Below, in pieces: positions 4,529 through 32,041 of a stretch of 54,172 bases of DNA. The notes beneath the pieces are model-generated. The model was not told the origin of the DNA. It made no database searches and was given only the letters and a program-made list of their open reading frames with translations. The DNA comes from a virus. Location of the stretch: positions 1 to 54,172 of IMG/VR virus record IMGVR_UViG_3300023084_000027. One strand, given 5' to 3'. Position 1 is the stretch's first letter. Each line of letters opens with the position of its first letter. A program made the translations under genes and the position numbers.

Positions 4529-5327
4529 TGTGCTAGTGACAGGGCAGTTTCCTGCTAATATTCCATGGCAGAAAATGATCGACGTGTTGTATCGTGTCGA
4601 GAAAATCTTTTTGAATATGCCAGACCATGACGTGAAGATTCGCTACCACACGTGGAGCAAACCAGAGATGCTTGCTAAGTTTGTACCACAAACTCAGATG
4701 ATGATTCGTGCACGAGATCAAGTCCTGCTCACACAAGAACCAAAAGTATACAATCCGTATAGAGAACAGAAAAAGTTTGTAGACACCCCTCGATGGACAG
4801 AACAAGTCAAGAGACACGGTGGTCCTTATGTGGAGGGACGTAAGTCTAACTATCGTGCACTTCAAATCATGTCTACGCTTGATCTTATTAACAGCATCAA
4901 AGAACCACCCGACCTGTATATCAGGACCCGATGGGACGCACTGATAGACTACACGTTTGATTTCGAGAAATACATACAAATGGCAGCAGAGGGAACTGTG
5001 GTTGGGTTTCAACTCAATTGCAACCCCGAAGATCCATGGTGGACGATACGTGAGAGATTTGAGAAACATGACTACTGGGAAGAGAAACAAATCAAGAAAA
5101 ATGGGTGGTGGCATCAGCACGTGTTTGATTACATGGTGATGTTTAAACCAGAACAGTTCAGATCACAGGTGATCAGTCATTGGTGGAAGCACAAACTCTT
5201 GCTTGCAGCAGAGTGGGGATGGTGGCAAGTGCTGTGTCACAACGGTGACGAGGAACCAACACCACACGTAAACGTGAATGGGATCGTACCCATTATTAGA
5301 CAGATGGAAGGAATACCACATGCCTAA
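4518..5327 (+). CDS. WavE/GT-like glycan biosynthesis protein
   Basis: A 269-residue soluble protein. The segment PPDLYIRTRWDALIDYTFDF fits the conserved Arg-x-Arg-x-Asp region of WavE-type lipopolysaccharide synthesis proteins and related glycosyltransferase-like families; the Asp may coordinate metal. Aromatic residues are very frequent in the last half (WWHQHVFDYM, EWGWWQV), suitable for sugar binding. It overlaps the radical SAM gene by 11 bases and the next gene by eight. Donor and acceptor are unknown. Family assignment is tentative, role in glycan synthesis is from motif plus operon. Confidence 0.5.
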   Translation: MRIDVLVTGQFPANIPWQKMIDVLYRVEKIFLNMPDHDVKIRYHTWSKPEMLAKFVPQTQMMIRARDQVLLTQEPKVYNPYREQKKFVDTPRWTEQVKRHGGPYVEGRKSNYRALQIMSTLDLINSIKEPPDLYIRTRWDALIDYTFDFEKYIQMAAEGTVVGFQLNCNPEDPWWTIRERFEKHDYWEEKQIKKNGWWHQHVFDYMVMFKPEQFRSQVISHWWKHKLLLAAEWGWWQVLCHNGDEEPTPHVNVNGIVPIIRQMEGIPHA

Positions 5328-6102
5328 AAGACTGATATATCAGGTCTGCCTTGGCGAACAGGCAAACTCGAAACTATACAAGTTCTGCATCGAGAGCGTC
5401 AAAGACTATTGTCAAGTGAATGGTATCGATCATTTTCTGCAAGACTATCCTCTGCTACGCATTTCCCCTGATCCTTTCATGAGCAACCGAAGTAAGGAGG
5501 CAACTGCCAAGCACGGTGGGTTCCTGCCTATCTACGAGAAAGAGAATGCATTCAACTATTTAAATGAATACGACGAGATCGCGGTGATCGATGCTGACGT
5601 GTATATCAGACAGGGTGCAGCAAATATATTTGAATCGATGGGTGACGGTGCGTTTGGTGCCGTGGTTGAGCGAGAGATGCCATTGACCCAGCAATACCTT
5701 GAGAAGATTGTCAATTATTCTCGTATGCAATTTACTCCATTACAAGACGTGGACTGGAAGTGGAAACGCACAGGTGCACACTTTGCTAACATGGGTGTGA
5801 TGGTGTTCAACAAGAAACTAGAACCCTATCTCATGGGACAGGACGCAAAAGCATTTCTCAATCGATACGAGTTCAAGCGATTCATTGATGGTATCGGTGC
5901 GTGGAAGTGGAGCACAGATCAGGTGCTGCTCAACTACTGGATCAAGAAGAACAAGATTCCGTTCACCTCACTGCCGTGGAAGTTTAACGGGTTGTTCACT
6001 GCTAACCGTGACATAAACGCATGCGACTTTGTTCACTTCTTCTTGAAGGACAAACTACCGCACAAGGGAGAGGATGTAGCAGGATTGCTGCAGATGATAT
6101 GA
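5320..6102 (+). CDS. GT8-like glycosyltransferase (GT-A fold)
   Basis: The ATG at 5320 overlaps the upstream stop by eight bases and is preferred over the longer frame from 5278. The 260-residue protein has the GT-A pattern: an N-terminal strand (RLIYQVCLGEQANSKLY), EYDEIAVIDADVYIR near residue 90, where Asp-Ala-Asp is the metal/nucleotide-sugar DxD motif, and HFANMGVMVFNK plus STDQVLLNYW farther on, both typical of GT8/GT-A enzymes. It would transfer a sugar from a nucleotide donor in the cytoplasm. The sugar cannot be told. Confidence 0.75.
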   Translation: MPKRLIYQVCLGEQANSKLYKFCIESVKDYCQVNGIDHFLQDYPLLRISPDPFMSNRSKEATAKHGGFLPIYEKENAFNYLNEYDEIAVIDADVYIRQGAANIFESMGDGAFGAVVEREMPLTQQYLEKIVNYSRMQFTPLQDVDWKWKRTGAHFANMGVMVFNKKLEPYLMGQDAKAFLNRYEFKRFIDGIGAWKWSTDQVLLNYWIKKNKIPFTSLPWKFNGLFTANRDINACDFVHFFLKDKLPHKGEDVAGLLQMI

Positions 6103-8065: not shown

Positions 8066-8770
8066 ATGATAGTTTATTGTGTATATACAGCACAAGATAA
8101 CGAGTCGATCAAAGGAATGAACCGATGTCGCAACTCAGCAAGAAAATATGACATCGACTTTCAACCGTGGGTAGGAGTATACTTTAAGAACCTGAAAGAG
8201 AAACACGAAGAACTGGGCATACGTGCGAAATACAAACCTGTTCCCGGTGGTAGCACCAGTTTCGATCAGAAGTACGCACCACAGTCACGTGTAGCAAACG
8301 GAACAACTCATTATGAATTGTATCTACGTGCAGCGAGACTGAACACTCCTATCGCTATCGTTGAGCATGACGCAATATTTCAGGCACCACTGCCCGAAGT
8401 GTTGCCAGAGAACATAAACGATTCCATCGTGCAGATCTCGTCACACAACGAGAAACAGATGACAGTGGAACTGCTTGAGACGTGTGGACGTGCGAACAAG
8501 ATGCGCAAGTATGGTAAGACACAAAAACCATATCGTGATTGGTCCGAAGAGATAGGAGTCATCCCGCATCCACTATCAGGGACGAACGGCACGAGTGGAT
8601 ATATCATTGGTCCGGGTGCTGCGCAGAAAATGGTTGACTACATAAAGGCAGACGGTGTGGGGTTTGCCGACAGATTGAGAGAAGAACACATAGGCGAGGG
8701 CAACTTGTATTTACAGGTACCACAGTGTGTGGTTTGTCCGCATGACATAAGATCAACGAGGTTATACTAA
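8066..8770 (+). CDS. GT25-type glycosyltransferase, copy 1
   Basis: A 234-residue protein of the LPS-type glycosyltransferase 25 pattern. The core is THYELYLRAARLNTPIAIVEHDAIF near residues 93-118: a helix followed by a Glu-His-Asp metal site. SGYIIGPGAAQKMVDYI near residue 175 is the usual second block. It begins one base after the previous stop and overlaps the next ATG. Two more GT25-like genes follow downstream (9399 and 10115) with the same EHDA motif, so the operon has a small paralog family, each perhaps adding a different sugar. Confidence 0.75.
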   Translation: MIVYCVYTAQDNESIKGMNRCRNSARKYDIDFQPWVGVYFKNLKEKHEELGIRAKYKPVPGGSTSFDQKYAPQSRVANGTTHYELYLRAARLNTPIAIVEHDAIFQAPLPEVLPENINDSIVQISSHNEKQMTVELLETCGRANKMRKYGKTQKPYRDWSEEIGVIPHPLSGTNGTSGYIIGPGAAQKMVDYIKADGVGFADRLREEHIGEGNLYLQVPQCVVCPHDIRSTRLY

Positions 8771-9402
8771 TGAGTGAATTGCTTGAGATATTTGATAAAA
8801 ATGGTTGTGACAAGGGGACAACGGGGCAATACGCACACCTCTATCACACAGTTTACGAACCCGCATTCGAACCCTTTCGTAACGATCCTATCAATATCCT
8901 TGAAGTCGGCATTTGGAAAGGCACGAGTCATCAGTCATGGGTAGATTATTTTCCTAACGCACAAGTCTATGGTATCGACGTGTTCACGCGAATGAAAGAG
9001 AGTGATGTTCCAGTTCTTCAGCACGAACGTGTTCACCATCTCAAGGCAGACAGTACCTCGTATGCTCTGCCCATGCTGGTAGAACAGGCATTCGGTAAAG
9101 ACATTCAATTTGATTTCATCATCGATGATGGTCTGCACACACCCGAAGCAAATGCGATGACGTTCAAGCACCTGATTCGATTCCTCAAACCTACAGGCAG
9201 GTTCTTCATCGAGGACGTGTGGGCACTGGACAAACTCACTACCGAAGAGAGTAAGCACCCTTGGATCCAGAAACCAGAATACAGCATGCTTGAATATAAC
9301 AAATTCATTGCAGCATTAGAAGGATATGCAGTCAAACGTCACGATCTCCGCAAGATAAGCAAGATCACTAACAGTTACATATTCGAAGTTAGGAAAGTAT
9401 GA
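8770..9402 (+). CDS. SAM-dependent sugar O-methyltransferase-like protein
   Basis: A 210-residue class I methyltransferase of the MycE/rhamnosyl-O-methyltransferase-like group. Evidence is the N-terminal DKGTTGQYAHLYHTVYEPAF, motif I ILEVGIWKGTSHQSWVDYFP, acidic strand VYGIDVF, then DFIIDDGLHTPEANAMTF, where the Asp-Asp and His are usual metal and base residues in this group, and RFFIEDVW. It probably methylates a sugar hydroxyl of the glycan built by neighbours. It sits between two GT25 genes with one- and four-base overlaps. Confidence 0.75.
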   Translation: MSELLEIFDKNGCDKGTTGQYAHLYHTVYEPAFEPFRNDPINILEVGIWKGTSHQSWVDYFPNAQVYGIDVFTRMKESDVPVLQHERVHHLKADSTSYALPMLVEQAFGKDIQFDFIIDDGLHTPEANAMTFKHLIRFLKPTGRFFIEDVWALDKLTTEESKHPWIQKPEYSMLEYNKFIAALEGYAVKRHDLRKISKITNSYIFEVRKV

Positions 9403-10118
9403 GAGCAAAAATAATTGTCCTCAGCATGAATGCTGAATCGTTCAAACATGCTGATGCATGTAACAACTCGTCTATCACAGTCGAGAACAACTTTCAGATC
9501 GAAAGGTTTCTAGCGTCCGAACCCAAAGACGTTGACAAACAAATGAGCGAGTTTGGTATCAAGTGGAATTACCCTTGGAACGGTGAGCAAGTCACCGACT
9601 TTGCATCAGGCATGGTGAAGACAGGATACCAGACTGCAGAACCCAAGAAAAGAATCGCTTGCTTTCTCTCTCACTATCGACTGTGGAGAGAGTGTGCTGA
9701 GAATGATGAACCGTATCTGATACTAGAGCATGACGCAATATTCACACGCAAACTCGACGTGAAGTTACTCAACTCTTCTCCCGTGTCGATCATATCAATC
9801 AATCAACCGCAACCCGGTGCAACACCACAAGCATTAAAATATGAGCAGGCAGTGGTCAAGTATGGTGGACAAAAAGGATCTCGAATCGTACCCGTGCCTC
9901 TTATAAACACGTGGAACGTTCCCCAAGGATTGCCGGGCAACTCTGCATACTGGATGAAACCAAAGGGAGCACAGATTATGATCGACTTGGTTGATAAATA
10001 TGGTGCATGGCCAAACGATGCCATCATGTGTAAACAACTAGTAGGACATAATAACCTTGGGTGTTTGTATCCGTTTTCTACTCGTGTTCAATCAACTTTA
10101 TCGACGACAACTCTATGA
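9399..10118 (+). CDS. GT25-type glycosyltransferase, copy 2
   Basis: A 239-residue protein with the most typical GT25 core of the three: KKRIACFLSHYRLWRECAE, then EPYLILEHDAIFTRK at about residues 105-122, and GNSAYWMKPKGAQIMIDLV farther on. The EHD residues would hold the metal and nucleotide sugar. The ATG overlaps the methyltransferase stop by four bases. Its C-terminal end (FSTRVQSTLSTTTL) overlaps the next start by an ATGA. The sugar is unknown. Confidence 0.8.
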   Translation: MRAKIIVLSMNAESFKHADACNNSSITVENNFQIERFLASEPKDVDKQMSEFGIKWNYPWNGEQVTDFASGMVKTGYQTAEPKKRIACFLSHYRLWRECAENDEPYLILEHDAIFTRKLDVKLLNSSPVSIISINQPQPGATPQALKYEQAVVKYGGQKGSRIVPVPLINTWNVPQGLPGNSAYWMKPKGAQIMIDLVDKYGAWPNDAIMCKQLVGHNNLGCLYPFSTRVQSTLSTTTL

Positions 10119-10777
10119 GAAATTTTGTAATCGCAATCCCTCACATGGCAGCATCGATGTCAGCAGCAGAACGCTGCATGAAATCTGGTGCCAAATATGA
10201 TATGAAAATAGAACCGTGGGCGGCAACAACTCCGAAGGATGACGTTCTAGCGATGTTCGAAGCACGTGGTATCAATCCACACTATTTCAACGAACAAGGC
10301 AACTCATATATTGCCAACTGCATGTCCGCATTTATGTCACACTATCGCATTTGGGAATGGTGTGACTCAAACGAGGAAGAGGTCACCATCTTCGAGCACG
10401 ATGCTGTGCTGATCGACAGGATACCAACTGTACCCTATGATGCAGCAATTACGTTTGGTCAACCCAGTTATGGCAACTGGAAACAACCGACGAACATCGG
10501 TGTTGGTCCTCTCACACATAAAAACTATTTTGGTGGTGCGCATGCCTATCGTATCAAACCCAAGGCAGCACGAGCATTCATCTATCAAGCGACAATAGCA
10601 GAACTCGCAGGACCCACGGACGTATTCATCAACAAAGACTGGTTTCCATGGTTGCAAGAGTATTACCCATGGCCAGTCATAGCACAAGATGCGTTCACCA
10701 CGATTCAACGTGAGGGTGGATGCAGAGCAAAGCACAATTGGGATCCCGACAAATATGGCATATATCAAGTCCAATGA
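10115..10777 (+). CDS. GT25-type glycosyltransferase, copy 3
   Basis: The ATG at 10115 in an ATGA overlap is the likely start (220 residues); the frame from 10061 would overlap the previous gene by 58 bases. The core is NCMSAFMSHYRIWEWCDSN and VTIFEHDAVLIDR, and GGAHAYRIKPKAARAFIYQA. It is alignable by eye with copy 2, showing duplication of the gene. It overlaps the next gene by 23 bases. Confidence 0.75.
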   Translation: MRNFVIAIPHMAASMSAAERCMKSGAKYDMKIEPWAATTPKDDVLAMFEARGINPHYFNEQGNSYIANCMSAFMSHYRIWEWCDSNEEEVTIFEHDAVLIDRIPTVPYDAAITFGQPSYGNWKQPTNIGVGPLTHKNYFGGAHAYRIKPKAARAFIYQATIAELAGPTDVFINKDWFPWLQEYYPWPVIAQDAFTTIQREGGCRAKHNWDPDKYGIYQVQ

Positions 10778-11414
10778 GATATTCATCACCGGATGCGACT
10801 CAAAATGTGAGTGGCAACTTCAGTGGTTTCTAAAGCGATATCGTAAGCACAACGACACTCCCATTGCATTTTGTGATTTTGGTGTCTCATACGAAACCAG
10901 ACTCTGGGCACAATCTGCATTTGATGAGGTCTATGAAATACCCATTCAGCACAATGCTGGGTGGTTCTACAAACCTCGTGCGATTCGACATGCACCTGCC
11001 AAAACCAAAGTATGGTTGGACACAGACATCGAGGTGCTAGGTGATCTGAGCGGCATTTTCACCCTGCTTCAACCAGAGCAACTCAATATGTGTCAAGATC
11101 GCCCTTGGATCAAGCGTCGAGGTGAGATGTGGCACAACTCTGGCACGGTGGGTGTAATTGGTACACCACAAATTCTGATTGACTGGGAGCATCGATGCGT
11201 GAATCATGCCAAGCAGGGAGATCAGGAGGTGCTGCACGAGATGCTTCAAAACGACATCTTAAGACTAAAATATATAAACACACTCCCGCAGAAATACAAC
11301 TGGTTGCGTATTCAGTTGCTTGACGGTGAGGACATGGATGGTAAATTGTGCATGCATTGGACAGGCATGAAAGGCAATATGGAAATAGAGAAGCAGATTT
11401 ATAATGACCAATAA
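10755..11414 (+). CDS. GT8-like nucleotide-sugar transferase
   Basis: Starting at ATG 10755 (219 residues). KVWLDTDIEVLGDLSGIF near residue 95 holds the Asp-Thr-Asp metal motif of GT-A/GT8 enzymes; NSGTVGVIGTPQILIDW and the closing HWTGMKGNM are the usual later blocks. The N-terminal IFITGCDSKCEWQLQWFLK is an open-strand start. It shares its fold type, not close sequence, with the gene at 5320. The overlap of 23 bases with GT25 copy 3 is the largest in this block apart from the sulfotransferase, so the start is moderately sure. Confidence 0.7.
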   Translation: MAYIKSNEIFITGCDSKCEWQLQWFLKRYRKHNDTPIAFCDFGVSYETRLWAQSAFDEVYEIPIQHNAGWFYKPRAIRHAPAKTKVWLDTDIEVLGDLSGIFTLLQPEQLNMCQDRPWIKRRGEMWHNSGTVGVIGTPQILIDWEHRCVNHAKQGDQEVLHEMLQNDILRLKYINTLPQKYNWLRIQLLDGEDMDGKLCMHWTGMKGNMEIEKQIYNDQ

Positions 11415-12108
11415 AGTGATACACGTTTTAGGCAACGGTGACAAGGCAGCATACTATCAGGAGCAACCGCGTCACGGTATGAAATTACTTTGTAATATGC
11501 CACCCTTCGAAGTGCCAGCAAAAGAGGTCTATGCAACTTGCATGGTAGATTTCAAAATGATGGCAGCACTCACCGAAGGATCGATCAACATTGATCAATA
11601 TATGTGGGTGCTGGGCACTCGTCCTCGAATCTGGATGTATGAGCGATCTGCATTCTATATGAAATATGCACCCAACATCAAAGAATTTTACACTCACGTG
11701 CCTGACTATGCTGGCAACGCGACCAACTTTAATTGTGGACACATGGCAGTGCATTATGCCTGTGCCAAGCATCGTGCAGACGAGGTACACCTGTATGGAT
11801 TCGACACTATATTTGACTTCAATATGCGTTCTATTACGGACCTCTACCTATCCAGTGATCGGACTGATGTGAACAACTATCGATTGCTCAACAACTGGAG
11901 ACCCGTATGGAGAGACATTTTTCGAGAGTTTCCAAAGACTGAGTTCATATTTCATCACAATCATTCAGATTTCAAGATTCCGAAGCTTGACAACATGCGC
12001 GTGGTAGTGTATGATAAACCTTTAAGTAAAGCACAAGAGCGTAAAGATGAATCCGATATCTCAGATGGTCGAGGCATGGATATACAACGGGTCACACCCC
12101 GTGTTTGA
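11404..12108 (+). CDS. GT42/DUF115-like putative glycan protein
   Basis: A 234-residue protein. The opening IHVLGNGDKAAYY, a later CNMPPFEVP, ATCMVDF, and NCGHMAVHYACAKHRADEVHLYGFDTIFDF recall the layout of DUF115 and family 42 (sialyltransferase-like) proteins: a Gly-Asn-Gly loop, an Asn/Asp pair, then a Ser/Cys-Gly helix followed by a GxD strand. This is a fold-level resemblance only. It closes the glycan operon; the next gene is nuclease-related. It overlaps the neighbours by 11 and eight bases. Confidence 0.45.
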   Translation: MTNKVIHVLGNGDKAAYYQEQPRHGMKLLCNMPPFEVPAKEVYATCMVDFKMMAALTEGSINIDQYMWVLGTRPRIWMYERSAFYMKYAPNIKEFYTHVPDYAGNATNFNCGHMAVHYACAKHRADEVHLYGFDTIFDFNMRSITDLYLSSDRTDVNNYRLLNNWRPVWRDIFREFPKTEFIFHHNHSDFKIPKLDNMRVVVYDKPLSKAQERKDESDISDGRGMDIQRVTPRV

Positions 12109-12796
12109 GCATGCCCAATGGTTTGTTTTAGACTACGAAGATCTCGATACCACCGAAATCAATGGCAAACGACAATATATAACACCGGAAGGTGACAGTT
12201 ATCCATCTGTCACCACAGTATTATCAATTTTATCAGAAGAATCAATTGCGAAATGGAAAGCAAGGGTTGGTGAAGATGAAGCTAATAAGATTTCTACACG
12301 TGCTTCTCGACGGGGTACTGCAGTTCATGAACTGGTCGAAAAGTATCTGGATAACTGCCCTGATTACCGTGATGGTTATATGCCTTCTACGATTGATTCT
12401 TTCTTAGCAATTAAGGGTGTACTCGATGCAAGAATCGGAAAAATTTACGCGCAGGAATGTCCTCTTTATAGCAACCATCTACGTCTCGCTGGGCGTGTTG
12501 ATTGTGTTGCTGAATTTGACGGAAAGATATCGATCATTGACTTCAAAACCTCTCGAAAAGCAAAACGTCGAAACTACATCAAAAACTATTTCGCCCAAGA
12601 AGCAGCATATGCCATCATGTGGGAAGAGCGAACTGGTATGCCTATTGAACAACTCGTTACCATCATCGCTGTAGATGATATGTACGGTGCTGGACCCGGC
12701 AATCAGGTCTATATAGAAAAACGAGATGATCACACCAAATTATTAAGGGAAACCATTGACCAATATACTCAGAGACAGCGTCAAGGATCTGCATGA
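12101..12796 (+). CDS. PD-(D/E)XK family exonuclease
   Basis: A nuclease of about 231 residues. The core GRVDCVAEFDGKISIIDFKTS has the spaced Asp, then Asp-x-Lys of the PD-(D/E)XK fold; YFAQEAAYAIMWEERTG is the Gln-containing motif of the RecB-like branch. Upstream is ITPEGDSYPSVTTVLS, typical of the exonuclease of marine T4-like phages. I choose GTG 12101 (overlapping the previous stop by eight bases, giving MFEHAQW...) over ATG 12047, which would overlap by 62. It likely works in phage DNA processing or recombination. Confidence 0.8.
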   Translation: MFEHAQWFVLDYEDLDTTEINGKRQYITPEGDSYPSVTTVLSILSEESIAKWKARVGEDEANKISTRASRRGTAVHELVEKYLDNCPDYRDGYMPSTIDSFLAIKGVLDARIGKIYAQECPLYSNHLRLAGRVDCVAEFDGKISIIDFKTSRKAKRRNYIKNYFAQEAAYAIMWEERTGMPIEQLVTIIAVDDMYGAGPGNQVYIEKRDDHTKLLRETIDQYTQRQRQGSA

Positions 12797-13280
12797 CGCA
12801 CTTGAGGCAACTCCTTTTGCGATTCGCATGTTCGAAGGTAAACTCACCGTAGCAGAACGAAAAGCATATTATGCCTCTCAACAACCCATATTCGAGTATC
12901 TAGATCAGCACGTCTGTTCAACCTACCTCGAACGTGCTCCTATTTTCCAGCACGATATTGATGCTCTTGCAGGAGCACCCGCAACTCGTCCGATTGCGAC
13001 TCACACCTATGTGTCACATCTCAAAAATCGTGCCAAAACACTCGATCCGCATCATTATGTGAACTACATGGGTTTGCTGTTTGGTGGTCAAATCATGAAG
13101 AAAATGTACCCTCAGACTACCATTTACGAATTTCCTCGCCCCATCGTGCAATGCCGTGAACTCATTCGCAATCAACATTGCCACACGATCAACTCTGAAT
13201 TCATCGAGGAAGCACGACAAGGATTCCAATTCCAAATCAATATTTTTACCGAACTAGGAGTGCTGCACCATGTGGGATGA
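12756..13280 (+). CDS. ho1: Heme oxygenase
   Basis: A 174-residue protein that would open heme to biliverdin, iron and CO. LHDALEATPFAIRMFEGKLT at the N-terminus contains the proximal heme ligand (His13), and YMGLLFGGQIMKK near residue 105 is the glycine-rich distal helix. YYASQQPIFEYLDQH is the second conserved helix. The start is TTG 12756, the only in-frame option near the conserved region, with AAGGGA (12745-12750) five bases upstream. It is shorter than cyanobacterial enzymes (about 240 residues), lacking C-terminal helices. It overlaps the exonuclease by 41 bases and the bilin reductase by 11, so the two pigment genes are coupled. Confidence 0.88.
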   Translation: MTNILRDSVKDLHDALEATPFAIRMFEGKLTVAERKAYYASQQPIFEYLDQHVCSTYLERAPIFQHDIDALAGAPATRPIATHTYVSHLKNRAKTLDPHHYVNYMGLLFGGQIMKKMYPQTTIYEFPRPIVQCRELIRNQHCHTINSEFIEEARQGFQFQINIFTELGVLHHVG

Positions 13281-13935
13281 ATTCATTCGCCTATCAGAAT
13301 CATTTTCAATACTCTTCGAAGGACATTTTGGTAAATCACAACCAATACCATTCAAAGAGCATCCAGACCACACCAATCTCGTTTACTCCTCAGATAAACT
13401 CGCACTGGGCCATATCTCGATCATCGACAAGCGAAAAGAAAAAGGTCTATGGATGATGCATGTTGCTGCCTATGCTAATTCAGACTATCCCATGCCTGTA
13501 TTCGGATATGATGTTGTAACATCTAAAACCAAGGTCACAGGTGTGTTTTTCGATGTCTCGCCCACTCTCATACCATCTAAGACAGAAAACTATTTCGCAG
13601 AACTCACACGTCCATTTAAGACAGAACGTACACGTGAACTACCACCATGGGCAAAAGAGATCTTTTCTCCTCATATGATTGCCGCAGGTATGCCCAAACC
13701 CAATGAGATCAAACAACTCTCTTATCTGGGACGTATCACTCTCACACACTGGATCGAAGAACTTCAGAATAAACAAGTACAAAGTGACATAGAATTCATT
13801 GCCCATCAAAACAAAATCCTAAAGAAATACTGCCAGAATCAGTTACAAAATACCAACTCAAAAAACGTCATGTTATCACTTGGATTAGATGAAGATTATG
13901 TCGATACATTCAAAAAATACCAATTCCCGTTTTAA
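13270..13935 (+). CDS. pcyX: Ferredoxin-dependent bilin reductase, PcyX-like
   Basis: A 221-residue protein of the ferredoxin-dependent bilin reductase family (PcyA/PebS/PcyX), which reduces biliverdin to a phycobilin. PMPVFGYDVVTSKTKVTGVF near residue 75 fits the conserved Pro-hydrophobic-Phe-Gly-x-Asp segment with its catalytic Asp, and FFDVSPT is the second family block; SPHMIAAGMP and a helical C-terminus follow. PcyX is known from uncultured oceanic viruses next to a heme oxygenase and yields phycoerythrobilin. The arrangement here is the same. The choice of PcyX over PebS rests on length, neighbours and the absence of cyanophage genes, so the exact product is inferred. Confidence 0.75.
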   Translation: MWDEFIRLSESFSILFEGHFGKSQPIPFKEHPDHTNLVYSSDKLALGHISIIDKRKEKGLWMMHVAAYANSDYPMPVFGYDVVTSKTKVTGVFFDVSPTLIPSKTENYFAELTRPFKTERTRELPPWAKEIFSPHMIAAGMPKPNEIKQLSYLGRITLTHWIEELQNKQVQSDIEFIAHQNKILKKYCQNQLQNTNSKNVMLSLGLDEDYVDTFKKYQFPF

Positions 13936-14010: not shown

Positions 14011-14685
14011 ATGAATCACGAAGCATTTGTCTATCTCTGGTTTGATGCCAAAAATCGTATGTTCTATCTGGGATATCACAAAGGACATCCCGATGATGAT
14101 TATACGCATTCATCCACGATAATGGAATCGTTCACCAAAAAGACTATTCCTACCTACATGCGTCGTAGAATACTTGCAACGGGTACACATCAAGAGATGC
14201 TTGATCTTGAGAATAAATTACTCGAAAATCGTAAAGAAAAGTGCTGGGACAAATATTATAATGTCAATGTAGCATTTCCACCTCCGCCTATGTATGGTGA
14301 AGATCATCCAATGTGGAAAGGAGGAATATGGTCTGACCCTGAAAAGATAAATGAATATTATCGTGATTATTATGCTAAGAATGTTGAAAAGAAACGTAAA
14401 TATGCTCGTGAATATCGACGTGAATATCGTAAAAAGAATCCTGAAAAGATGCGTGAATATGATCGTCAAAGGCGAGCAATAGATGCTGATAAGAGACGTG
14501 AATATCGTGTGAAGAATGCTGAAAAGTTACGTGAATATGATCGTAAATATCGTGAAAAGAATCGTGATACGATACGTGAAAAGAATCGTGAACGAAAACG
14601 TGAATATCGTGCTAAGAATCGTGATAAGTTACGTGAATATTACCGTCAATATTATGCTAGGAAGAAAGCAGAGAAAGCATTATAA
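14011..14685 (+). CDS. GIY-YIG-like putative homing endonuclease with REY repeats
   Basis: A 224-residue protein. The N-terminal 85 residues look like a GIY-YIG-type nuclease found in phages: FVYLWFDAKNRMFYLGYHKG, then THSS and a helix with DLENKLLE whose Glu may be the metal ligand. A short linker (YGEDHPMWKGGIW) resembles NUMOD-type DNA-binding segments. The last 110 residues repeat a highly charged unit around KNxEKxREYxRxY, predicted as long helices that may wrap DNA. A ribosome-binding site GAGGAAG is at 13999-14005. It forms a pair with the HNH gene that follows (TAATG overlap), like a mobile intruder behind pcyX. Confidence 0.65.
   Translation: MNHEAFVYLWFDAKNRMFYLGYHKGHPDDDYTHSSTIMESFTKKTIPTYMRRRILATGTHQEMLDLENKLLENRKEKCWDKYYNVNVAFPPPPMYGEDHPMWKGGIWSDPEKINEYYRDYYAKNVEKKRKYAREYRREYRKKNPEKMREYDRQRRAIDADKRREYRVKNAEKLREYDRKYREKNRDTIREKNRERKREYRAKNRDKLREYYRQYYARKKAEKAL
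14402..14639 (+). repeat. Repeated CGTGAATAT-containing units inside the endonuclease gene
   Basis: The nonamer CGTGAATAT occurs seven times at irregular spacing, usually followed by a CGT/GAT codon. It encodes the REY repeats of the charged tail. The region is a likely place for length change by slippage or recombination. Confidence 0.7.
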
Positions 14686-15047
14686 TGACTAAAAATACAA
14701 AAACTTGCACTCAGTGTTTCCAAACTCTGCCCAGAACGTTAGAATATTTTCACAGCAATGGTAAGCACTATTTTTCATCAAAATGTAAACCTTGTCATAA
14801 TGAATATAATAAAAATAGAGACAATAGAACAAGAAAATGGTACAAAGAATACAAGCAAACTCTTTTCTGTGTGCAGTGTGGATTCGATGATTACCGTGCA
14901 TTAGTCTTTCATCACAGAGATCCTAGCACCAAATCCTTTACAGTTTCAAATCATACTAATAGAAGCAGAGAAAACCTACTAAACGAAATTGCTAAGTGTG
15001 ATGTTCTATGTGCAAACTGCCACTCAATAGTTCATCATGTGGAATAA
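14685..15047 (+). CDS. HNH endonuclease
   Basis: A 120-residue HNH nuclease. Two cysteine pairs (CTQC...CKPC and CVQC...CANC) hold zinc and frame the HNH core LVFHHRDPSTKSFTVS and CDVLCANCHSIVHH; the two adjacent His of the first block and the His of the last are the active-site residues. Its ATG overlaps the previous stop. Free-standing HNH genes of this kind in T4-like phages often are homing or nicking enzymes. The following 58 bases carry a late-like promoter. Confidence 0.85.
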   Translation: MTKNTKTCTQCFQTLPRTLEYFHSNGKHYFSSKCKPCHNEYNKNRDNRTRKWYKEYKQTLFCVQCGFDDYRALVFHHRDPSTKSFTVSNHTNRSRENLLNEIAKCDVLCANCHSIVHHVE

Positions 15048-15105: not shown

Positions 15106-15498
15106 ATGCGTAAAATGTTGTGGATGTGTGCGGGATATATTTCTCTTGCCCTAGCGTATATTGGATTTGTAACACCCGGTATACCGTTCAGTATCTTTCT
15201 AGTGTTCTCTGCCTACTGCTTTGCTAAGTCTTCTCCACGTATGCATGCATGGATCTACAATCACAAGCACTTTGGACCCTTCCTCACTGGATGGGTTGAG
15301 AAGAGAATATTCCCCACCCGATTTAAGTATGCTATGGTGCTTGTCATGTCATCCTCACTTGCCTTTCTATGGTTCACCACATACAATCTTAACGCAGTAC
15401 TCTGGTCTGGAATCTTCATGGCATTGGTTGCTATATGGGCATGGAGATATCCCGGTTCAGAAGAAGAATACCAAAAAAGACTTGACAAGAAGTCGTAA
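15106..15498 (+). CDS. DUF454 (YbaN-like) inner membrane protein
   Basis: A 130-residue membrane protein. YISLALAYIGFVTPGIPFSI, AKSSPRMHAWIYNHKHFGPFL and the later hydrophobic pair (YAMVLVMSSSLAFLWF and LWSGIFMALVAIWAW) are the features of the DUF454/YbaN family, with four predicted membrane passes. The cellular function of the family is unknown. It is rare as a phage gene and could alter the host envelope or complement a host homologue. It stands alone, preceded by the endonuclease pair and followed by promoters. Confidence 0.8.
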   Translation: MRKMLWMCAGYISLALAYIGFVTPGIPFSIFLVFSAYCFAKSSPRMHAWIYNHKHFGPFLTGWVEKRIFPTRFKYAMVLVMSSSLAFLWFTTYNLNAVLWSGIFMALVAIWAWRYPGSEEEYQKRLDKKS

Positions 15499-31540: not shown

Positions 31541-32041
31541 TTATTTAGTCTTTTTTCGGGAATATGGTTTCATTTTTTTGAGAGGTTTTAATTTACCGGG
31601 CATCTTTTTCGGCAAAATGCCCATTTTTCCTAATTTGACCTCTGTCCAAATATCAAATTGCATTTTGTGGTCTTTGCAATACTCTTCTGCCGCTTTCCAC
31701 TTGCAAGTATTTTTAATATAAGTAAATGCTTCTGTGATATAGCGTTTTGTCCGTTTGTTTCCAGTAGGAGCAGTTGTTTCTTTTTGAGGTTTGACTTCAA
31801 TGAGGGATTGTTTTCCGTTTTTCCATTTCACCCAAAAATCCGGAAAATATCTGTGCACTCTTTTGTCCCCTTCGTCGTAATAAGGGATTGTTATTTCTTC
31901 ACTGGACCATTGTACAACATCAGGAGACTTATCGAAAAACATCATGCAGTTCTTTTCCCATAAACTCCTATAGACAATATTTCTATAGTCTCCTTTATAC
32001 TTATTAGTGTTTTTAGGACGGAAGTAACCTGAGTATGCCAT
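31541..32041 (-). CDS. gp4: Head completion protein gp4
   Basis: A 166-residue protein with the features of T4 gp4: AYSGYFRPKNTNKYKGDYRN, VYRSLWEKNCMMFFDKSPDV, VHRYFPDFWVKWKNGKQSLIEVKP. The Asp in FPDF and Glu-x-Lys in IEVKP form a PD-(D/E)XK nuclease-like site, as in the known family. It works at the head-tail junction in completing DNA-filled heads. The tail is Lys-rich (MKPYSRKKTK). It begins the minus-strand late operon, right beside the divergent gp48 promoter. Confidence 0.9.
   Translation of the reverse strand: MAYSGYFRPKNTNKYKGDYRNIVYRSLWEKNCMMFFDKSPDVVQWSSEEITIPYYDEGDKRVHRYFPDFWVKWKNGKQSLIEVKPQKETTAPTGNKRTKRYITEAFTYIKNTCKWKAAEEYCKDHKMQFDIWTEVKLGKMGILPKKMPGKLKPLKKMKPYSRKKTK

Follow-up and report, generated by a model that had tools for sequence, protein, structure and literature searches.

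Why does a record from a marine T4-like virus, in which no photosystem gene was found, carry overlapping genes for a heme oxygenase (HO) and a ferredoxin-dependent bilin reductase (FDBR), and what chemistry and purpose do the two enzymes serve? The locus lies in a 54,172-base linear virus record, itself a fragment (GC about 37–45%), which is referred to here as the window. Its T4-type genes include gp32 (nearest record, Methylophilales phage Melnitz, 57%), baseplate, tail lysozyme, ThyX and PhoH. The pair follows a glycosyltransferase/methyltransferase block and then a phage exonuclease gene (12047–12796, plus strand; phrog_298, PHROGs E = 1.7e-73; nearest record, Phage C48C1, 57%) that shares its last 41 nt with the beginning of the HO gene. 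The HO gene itself (12756–13280, plus strand; 174 residues) has a TTG start, with a Shine–Dalgarno-like AAGGGA read from the sequence 5 nt before it (12745–12750, plus strand), and overlaps the FDBR gene (13270–13935, plus strand; 221 residues). The block before the pair, which spans 8066–10777 and includes a family 25 glycosyltransferase along with methyltransferase functions, partly recurs in L003 and L005 (L-numbers label the HO/FDBR or DUF454 loci compared here). Elsewhere in the window, the product of 31541–32041 (minus strand) matches a TnsA-like endonuclease N-terminal domain (E = 2.2e-21) and, given the T4-like genome, probably represents a nuclease for head completion, not part of a transposase.

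The open reading frames and enzyme families named in the original prediction were borne out. The HO product matches Pfam PF01126 (Heme_oxygenase; E = 2e-12, 47.8 bits against a curated cut-off of 23) and the FDBR falls inside its family by profile search (PF05996, Fe_bilin_red; E = 3.7e-15, 56.6 bits, curated cut-off 31), by structural modelling and by phylogeny with PcyA and PcyX sequences. AlphaFold2 models of both proteins reached a mean pLDDT of 95.7 and were aligned with VIA-align to rat HO-1 (Z 21.3, rmsd 2.2, 172 residues) and, for the FDBR, to PcyA (Z 25.7, rmsd 2.2, 215 residues) and PcyX 5OWG (Z 21.8, rmsd 1.8, 174 residues). In the model, the 174 residues of the window HO make up the entire HO fold, with shortened loops. 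This shortness, initially singled out as unusual, is common to the whole HO clade, and it is not a truncation, because it is a clade-wide property and the protein covers all of the aligned length of HO-1; a pseudogene or truncated gene was likewise rejected, on the complete fold and low dN/dS. The TTG start and AAGGGA had also been flagged as unusual: both are present, and the start is supported because homologue N-termini begin at the same place (M-S-N-I-R-D from an ATG in L005, M-M-N-I-R-D from a TTG in L003), an agreement that removes the TTG as an anomaly and leaves it unexceptional within the clade. When viral contigs were scanned with the window HO alone as query, no relative was found; an alignment of the HO clade recovered them, and scans of IMG/VR with this alignment and with the FDBR yielded some 50–60 distinct HO/FDBR loci. 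Plasmids scanned for the FDBR gave no match.

We then considered which kind of bilin reductase the window encodes. The nearest solved structure by sequence is PcyX 5OWG (E = 5.7e-28; PcyA, E = 4e-10), and in a maximum-likelihood tree of 64 sequences the window FDBR belongs to a clade of 17 (support 100/99) that joins a Lys-type clade (C) and the PcyX clade (A) in one branch (99/98). That branch is separate from alphaproteobacterial PcyA, cyanophage PcyA and a group of PcyA-like phage FDBRs (D), and grouping of the window FDBR with cyanobacterial/cyanophage or alphaproteobacterial PcyA was not seen in this 64-sequence tree. The catalytic Asp–His pair is kept (His64 and Asp81 in the window; the equivalents of PcyA His88/Asp105 are invariant in all groups), and the spacing between the Ser/Asp position discussed below and the catalytic His is two residues longer in the window clade and PcyX alike. 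Ledermann reportedly found in 2018 that Asp55 of PcyX is not catalytic and that the Asp–His pair is. At this position, which corresponds to Glu76 of PcyA, the window has Ser50, and Ser is present in 18 of the 18 aligned clade members, as against Asp in all 24 PcyX-type sequences and Lys in all 4 of clade C; the D-type FDBRs show a PcyA-like His-x-Glu once alignment gaps are closed. At least 30 other positions also separate the Ser-type from PcyX, being near-uniform in one group with that residue rare or absent in the other.

These data bear on the simplest account of the locus, namely that it is an ordinary HO/PcyX pair whose chemistry is unchanged, whose product is phycoerythrobilin and whose reductase is merely a divergent PcyX lineage. 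We put this account at a little short of an even chance: the shared branch, the kept Asp–His pair and the common longer spacing are what it predicts, whereas the separate clade, the uniform Ser against the uniform Asp, the other group-specific positions and a partner HO that falls in a different clade (below) speak for a departure from it. PcyA Glu76 is needed for reduction of the D-ring 18-vinyl group and is absent from PcyX and pre-PcyA (PMC10151467), and Asp55 is named as PcyX-specific in Wegner 2024 (PMC11480375). By these sequence comparisons the earlier label of PcyX-like reductase holds as to kinship, with the window FDBR placed in a separate, strongly supported sister clade; the name PcyX as such is not justified, because Asp55 is replaced by Ser50 and the clade stands apart. 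Its most likely product, at slightly better than even confidence, would be phycoerythrobilin, because the enzyme groups with PcyX, a conclusion drawn from kinship. A lesser though serious candidate is a product of two-electron reduction, for example phytochromobilin or dihydrobiliverdin, and phycocyanobilin would not be expected because the Glu76 needed for 18-vinyl reduction is absent.

Several further combinations of the two enzymes were found among the compared loci. A third FDBR type (L009–L016, for example L015) has Lys at the Glu76/Asp55 position and is partnered by an HO that keeps Asp140; the 170 kb phage record of L015 also carries the 5-ALA synthase AlaS with DUF454, some 30 kb away. 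The loci L071 and L081–L088 combine an HO from the clade without Asp140 with a phage FDBR that carries the PcyA-like His-x-Glu motif, and these FDBRs may be what Wegner 2024 describes in CB_2 as 'PcyA*'. Pairs of a PcyX-type FDBR and an HO also occur on bacterially binned contigs (L097, L098, L099 and L103), among them PBPT01000016.1 (L097), a 335 kb contig of a Neomarinimicrobiota metagenome-assembled genome.

The partner HO has an altered active site of its own. Our tree unites the HOs found in Ser-type phages with those of the D phages in a single clade (support 100/98). With residue equivalences given in human HO-1 numbering, the window HO keeps the proximal heme ligand (His13; the proximal His is invariant in 25 of 25 clade members) and has its distal network replaced, with Phe46 for Tyr58, Asn103 for Arg136 and Leu107 for Asp140. 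The replacements run through the clade: a hydrophobic residue (Leu, Phe, Met, Val, Trp or Ile) occupies the Asp140 position in 25/25 members and Asn the Arg136 position in 25/25, and the Tyr58 position is Phe in 22, Met in 2 and Leu in 1 of the 25, whereas the other phage HOs retain Asp140 (27/27), Arg136 (26/26) and Tyr58 (24/24). The position of window Gln160, placed at HO-1 Asn210 from the aligned ends of the structural alignment, is His, Gln or Asn in 22 of the 25 clade members and Ala in 26 of 27 other phage HOs, a difference that suggests a rewired distal hydrogen-bond network in this clade.

Would such an enzyme still open heme? In HO-1, Asp140 mutants lose oxygenase activity and human D140A turns into a peroxidase (PMC5623701), and the joint disappearance of the distal network residues from all 25 members would suit a protein that has become a peroxidase or heme carrier and is no longer an oxygenase. 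We consider this improbable, since the HO gene stands directly before that of an FDBR, an enzyme that acts on what HO produces, and does so in two different FDBR backgrounds; since not only the proximal His but also His132, Tyr134 and Gly143 are invariant in the clade; and since plant HO-1 lacks the same Arg136 and Asp140 and is nonetheless active, driven by ferredoxin and using another hydrogen-bond path (PMC7948506). The window HO is expected to be an active, ferredoxin-driven oxygenase. The proposal of a complete pathway that leads from heme to a phycobilin stands as regards the enzyme complement, which appears whole, and needs amending for an HO predicted to work without the canonical distal network.

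Both genes are maintained under purifying selection, because dN/dS between diverged relatives is 0.07–0.13 (FDBR, window versus L003, 0.075 over 140 codons with dS 1.6; FDBR, L022/L078, 0.071; HO, L004/L063, 0.134); near-identical pairs give about 0.3. The HO gene has, in addition, been exchanged almost exactly at its ends, because the L003 contig matches the flanking DNA of the window (74% identical to 9561–12766 and 78% to 13270–13686) and shows no DNA match across the HO gene; the window and L003 proteins are correspondingly 82% identical for the FDBRs and 37–38% for the HOs. The HO residue signature is unchanged across this exchange. Another exchange is seen in L071, where a D-type FDBR is paired with an HO that the tree places in the window's own sub-clade.

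As the original prediction had noted for the 54 kb, no Photo_RC (psbA-type) gene was found in the window, and none was found in 21 HO/FDBR phage records (up to 221 kb) under a search in which cyanophage P-SSM7, the positive control, scored 2.3e-88. Since most of these records, the window included, are incomplete, the support for absence of psbA from the whole phage genome is only indirect and comes from relatives as long as 221 kb. A cyanophage origin of the pair was rejected on the lack of psbA in these records together with an FDBR that is not of the cyanophage type. The phage records searched contained no phytochrome gene, and among them only that of Pelagibacter phage Mosig held a Fer2 ferredoxin.

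For both enzymes, the computed evidence comprises complete folds, kept catalytic residues, purifying selection and gene linkage. We propose that the pair is probably a phage auxiliary heme-to-bilin module, on a branch separate from that of the PcyX phages characterised so far, that makes a bilin and has a DUF454 protein as partner. In this scheme, HO would open host heme to biliverdin by way of its rewired distal hydrogen-bond network, the FDBR would reduce biliverdin to a phytobilin with electrons from host ferredoxin, and the DUF454 protein would act as a membrane partner. The module might instead serve to release iron and to remove heme and biliverdin in iron-poor water rather than to produce pigment. 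HO does free iron, a role for iron is discussed in print (PMC11480375) and the 54 kb window record has no AlaS, all of which suit that purpose; we nevertheless judge it unlikely, as iron release does not need an FDBR and in related phages HO/FDBR occurs together with AlaS, whose activity uses the iron up again (PMC11480375). The likeliest purpose would be the bilin itself, made in an infected heterotroph, with the bilin rather than freed iron as the wanted product, because related phages add AlaS and the iron released by HO is bound again in freshly synthesised heme; to the phage of the window, whose record has no AlaS, this reasoning extends by analogy.

The proposed third member of the module, a DUF454 (YbaN-like) membrane protein gene at 15106–15498 (plus strand; PF04304, E = 9.2e-27), is absent from the original prediction and emerged from gene linkage. 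DUF454 lies 3' of the FDBR gene in 13 of the 17 distinct clade contigs that extend far enough, directly after it in most and, in the L004 group, at a distance of about 0.9 kb. In the window the two are separated by an HNH endonuclease gene, probably a homing endonuclease (14685–15047, plus strand; PHROGs E = 3.5e-34), and its companion (14011–14685, plus strand; no Pfam match, weak PHROG), which together displace DUF454 from the pair. In L018 and L029 the HNH gene and companion are located after DUF454 rather than before it, which suggests that they are a mobile insertion.

To gauge this linkage more widely, we used the window DUF454 as query of viral contigs and compared its best 80 viral loci with 80 control loci of similar length fetched with the window gp32. 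HO/FDBR or AlaS genes were held by 55 of the 80 DUF454 loci (HO/FDBR in 22, AlaS in 34), which as the nearest relatives of the window DUF454 are not independent of one another, against 3 of the 80 controls; 25 of the best 80 adjoin structural or other genes. Where AlaS is present, its end is mostly the start of DUF454, in varied surroundings, and in L226 HO, FDBR, AlaS and DUF454 are all present. Independently of HO/FDBR, DUF454 is likewise found with phage AlaS, the AlaS end coinciding with the DUF454 start in L202, L213, L215, L219 and others (DUF454 near 4995–5408). Among 385 sampled alphaproteobacterial genomes, 114 have DUF454 over the cut-off; in none of the 385 was it seen adjoining HO, and a Pfam scan of the neighbours at 30 alphaproteobacterial loci revealed no consistent partner (HemN_C was considered and dropped as too weak, at 2 of 77 neighbours). 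Our literature search found no paper connecting DUF454 or YbaN with heme oxygenase, and the main text of Wegner 2024 (PMC11480375) makes no mention of a membrane or hypothetical protein. From its linkage, the DUF454 membrane protein probably serves the same tetrapyrrole function as HO and FDBR. More speculatively, and as an idea that we hold only tentatively, there may be a phage tetrapyrrole module in which the HO dispenses with the Tyr58–Arg136–Asp140 network, the FDBR has a specificity of its own and DUF454 is a general partner of HO/FDBR and of AlaS. If true, this would be the first functional assignment for the widespread DUF454 family, and the tie of a family so common in alphaproteobacterial genomes to phage tetrapyrrole genes is in any case a lead. 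Specialists would expect the HO/FDBR pair; they would not expect clade-wide residue replacement in both enzymes or the DUF454 linkage. The branch supplies natural active-site variants of both enzymes, through which the need for Asp140 in HO chemistry and the basis of FDBR product specificity can be examined.

Finally, we compared the locus with known systems, beginning with the original claim that the pair is of a type known from oceanic viruses. That claim is right: published work already describes HO and PcyX pairs in phages of hosts other than cyanobacteria, and the pair as such is not new, because PcyX 5OWG, Pelagibacter phage Mosig and Wegner 2024 precede it. PcyX EBK42635 (PDB 5OWG), from an uncultured oceanic phage, shares with the window the FDBR branch, the Asp–His pair and a source outside the cyanophages, but has its own Asp55 where the window has Ser50 and sits in a separate clade; the HO type of PcyX phages keeps Asp140, Arg136 and Tyr58, unlike the window HO. 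Pelagibacter phage Mosig EXVC030M (MT647606; Mosig_00054/00053) is a T4-like phage of a heterotroph with annotated HO and FDBR genes that, as here, are adjacent and overlap, yet identity to the window is about 31–35% for the FDBR and 22% for HO, its FDBR has the PcyX-type Asp, its HO has Asp140, its pair adjoins neck genes and its record has no DUF454. Wegner 2024 (PMC11480375), which calls the co-occurrence of heme-to-bilin genes in phages enigmatic, describes hemO-pcyA/X-alaS cassettes in CB_2 and marine phages, with activity demonstrated for the freshwater phage CB_2. These, too, are phage genes for heme breakdown to bilins; the CB_2 enzyme, however, makes phycocyanobilin (PMC11480375), and CB_2-type cassettes come with alaS, of which the window record has none. 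A parallel to the window HO is the plant enzyme GmHO-1 (7CKA), which works with ferredoxin and without Arg136 and Asp140 (PMC7948506); the two are 16% identical (Z 15.4), and plant HOs have His at the Asp140 position where the window HO clade has a hydrophobic residue. Set beside these systems, what is new is an undescribed FDBR/HO branch in which active-site residues are swapped in both enzymes and DUF454 usually stands alongside.
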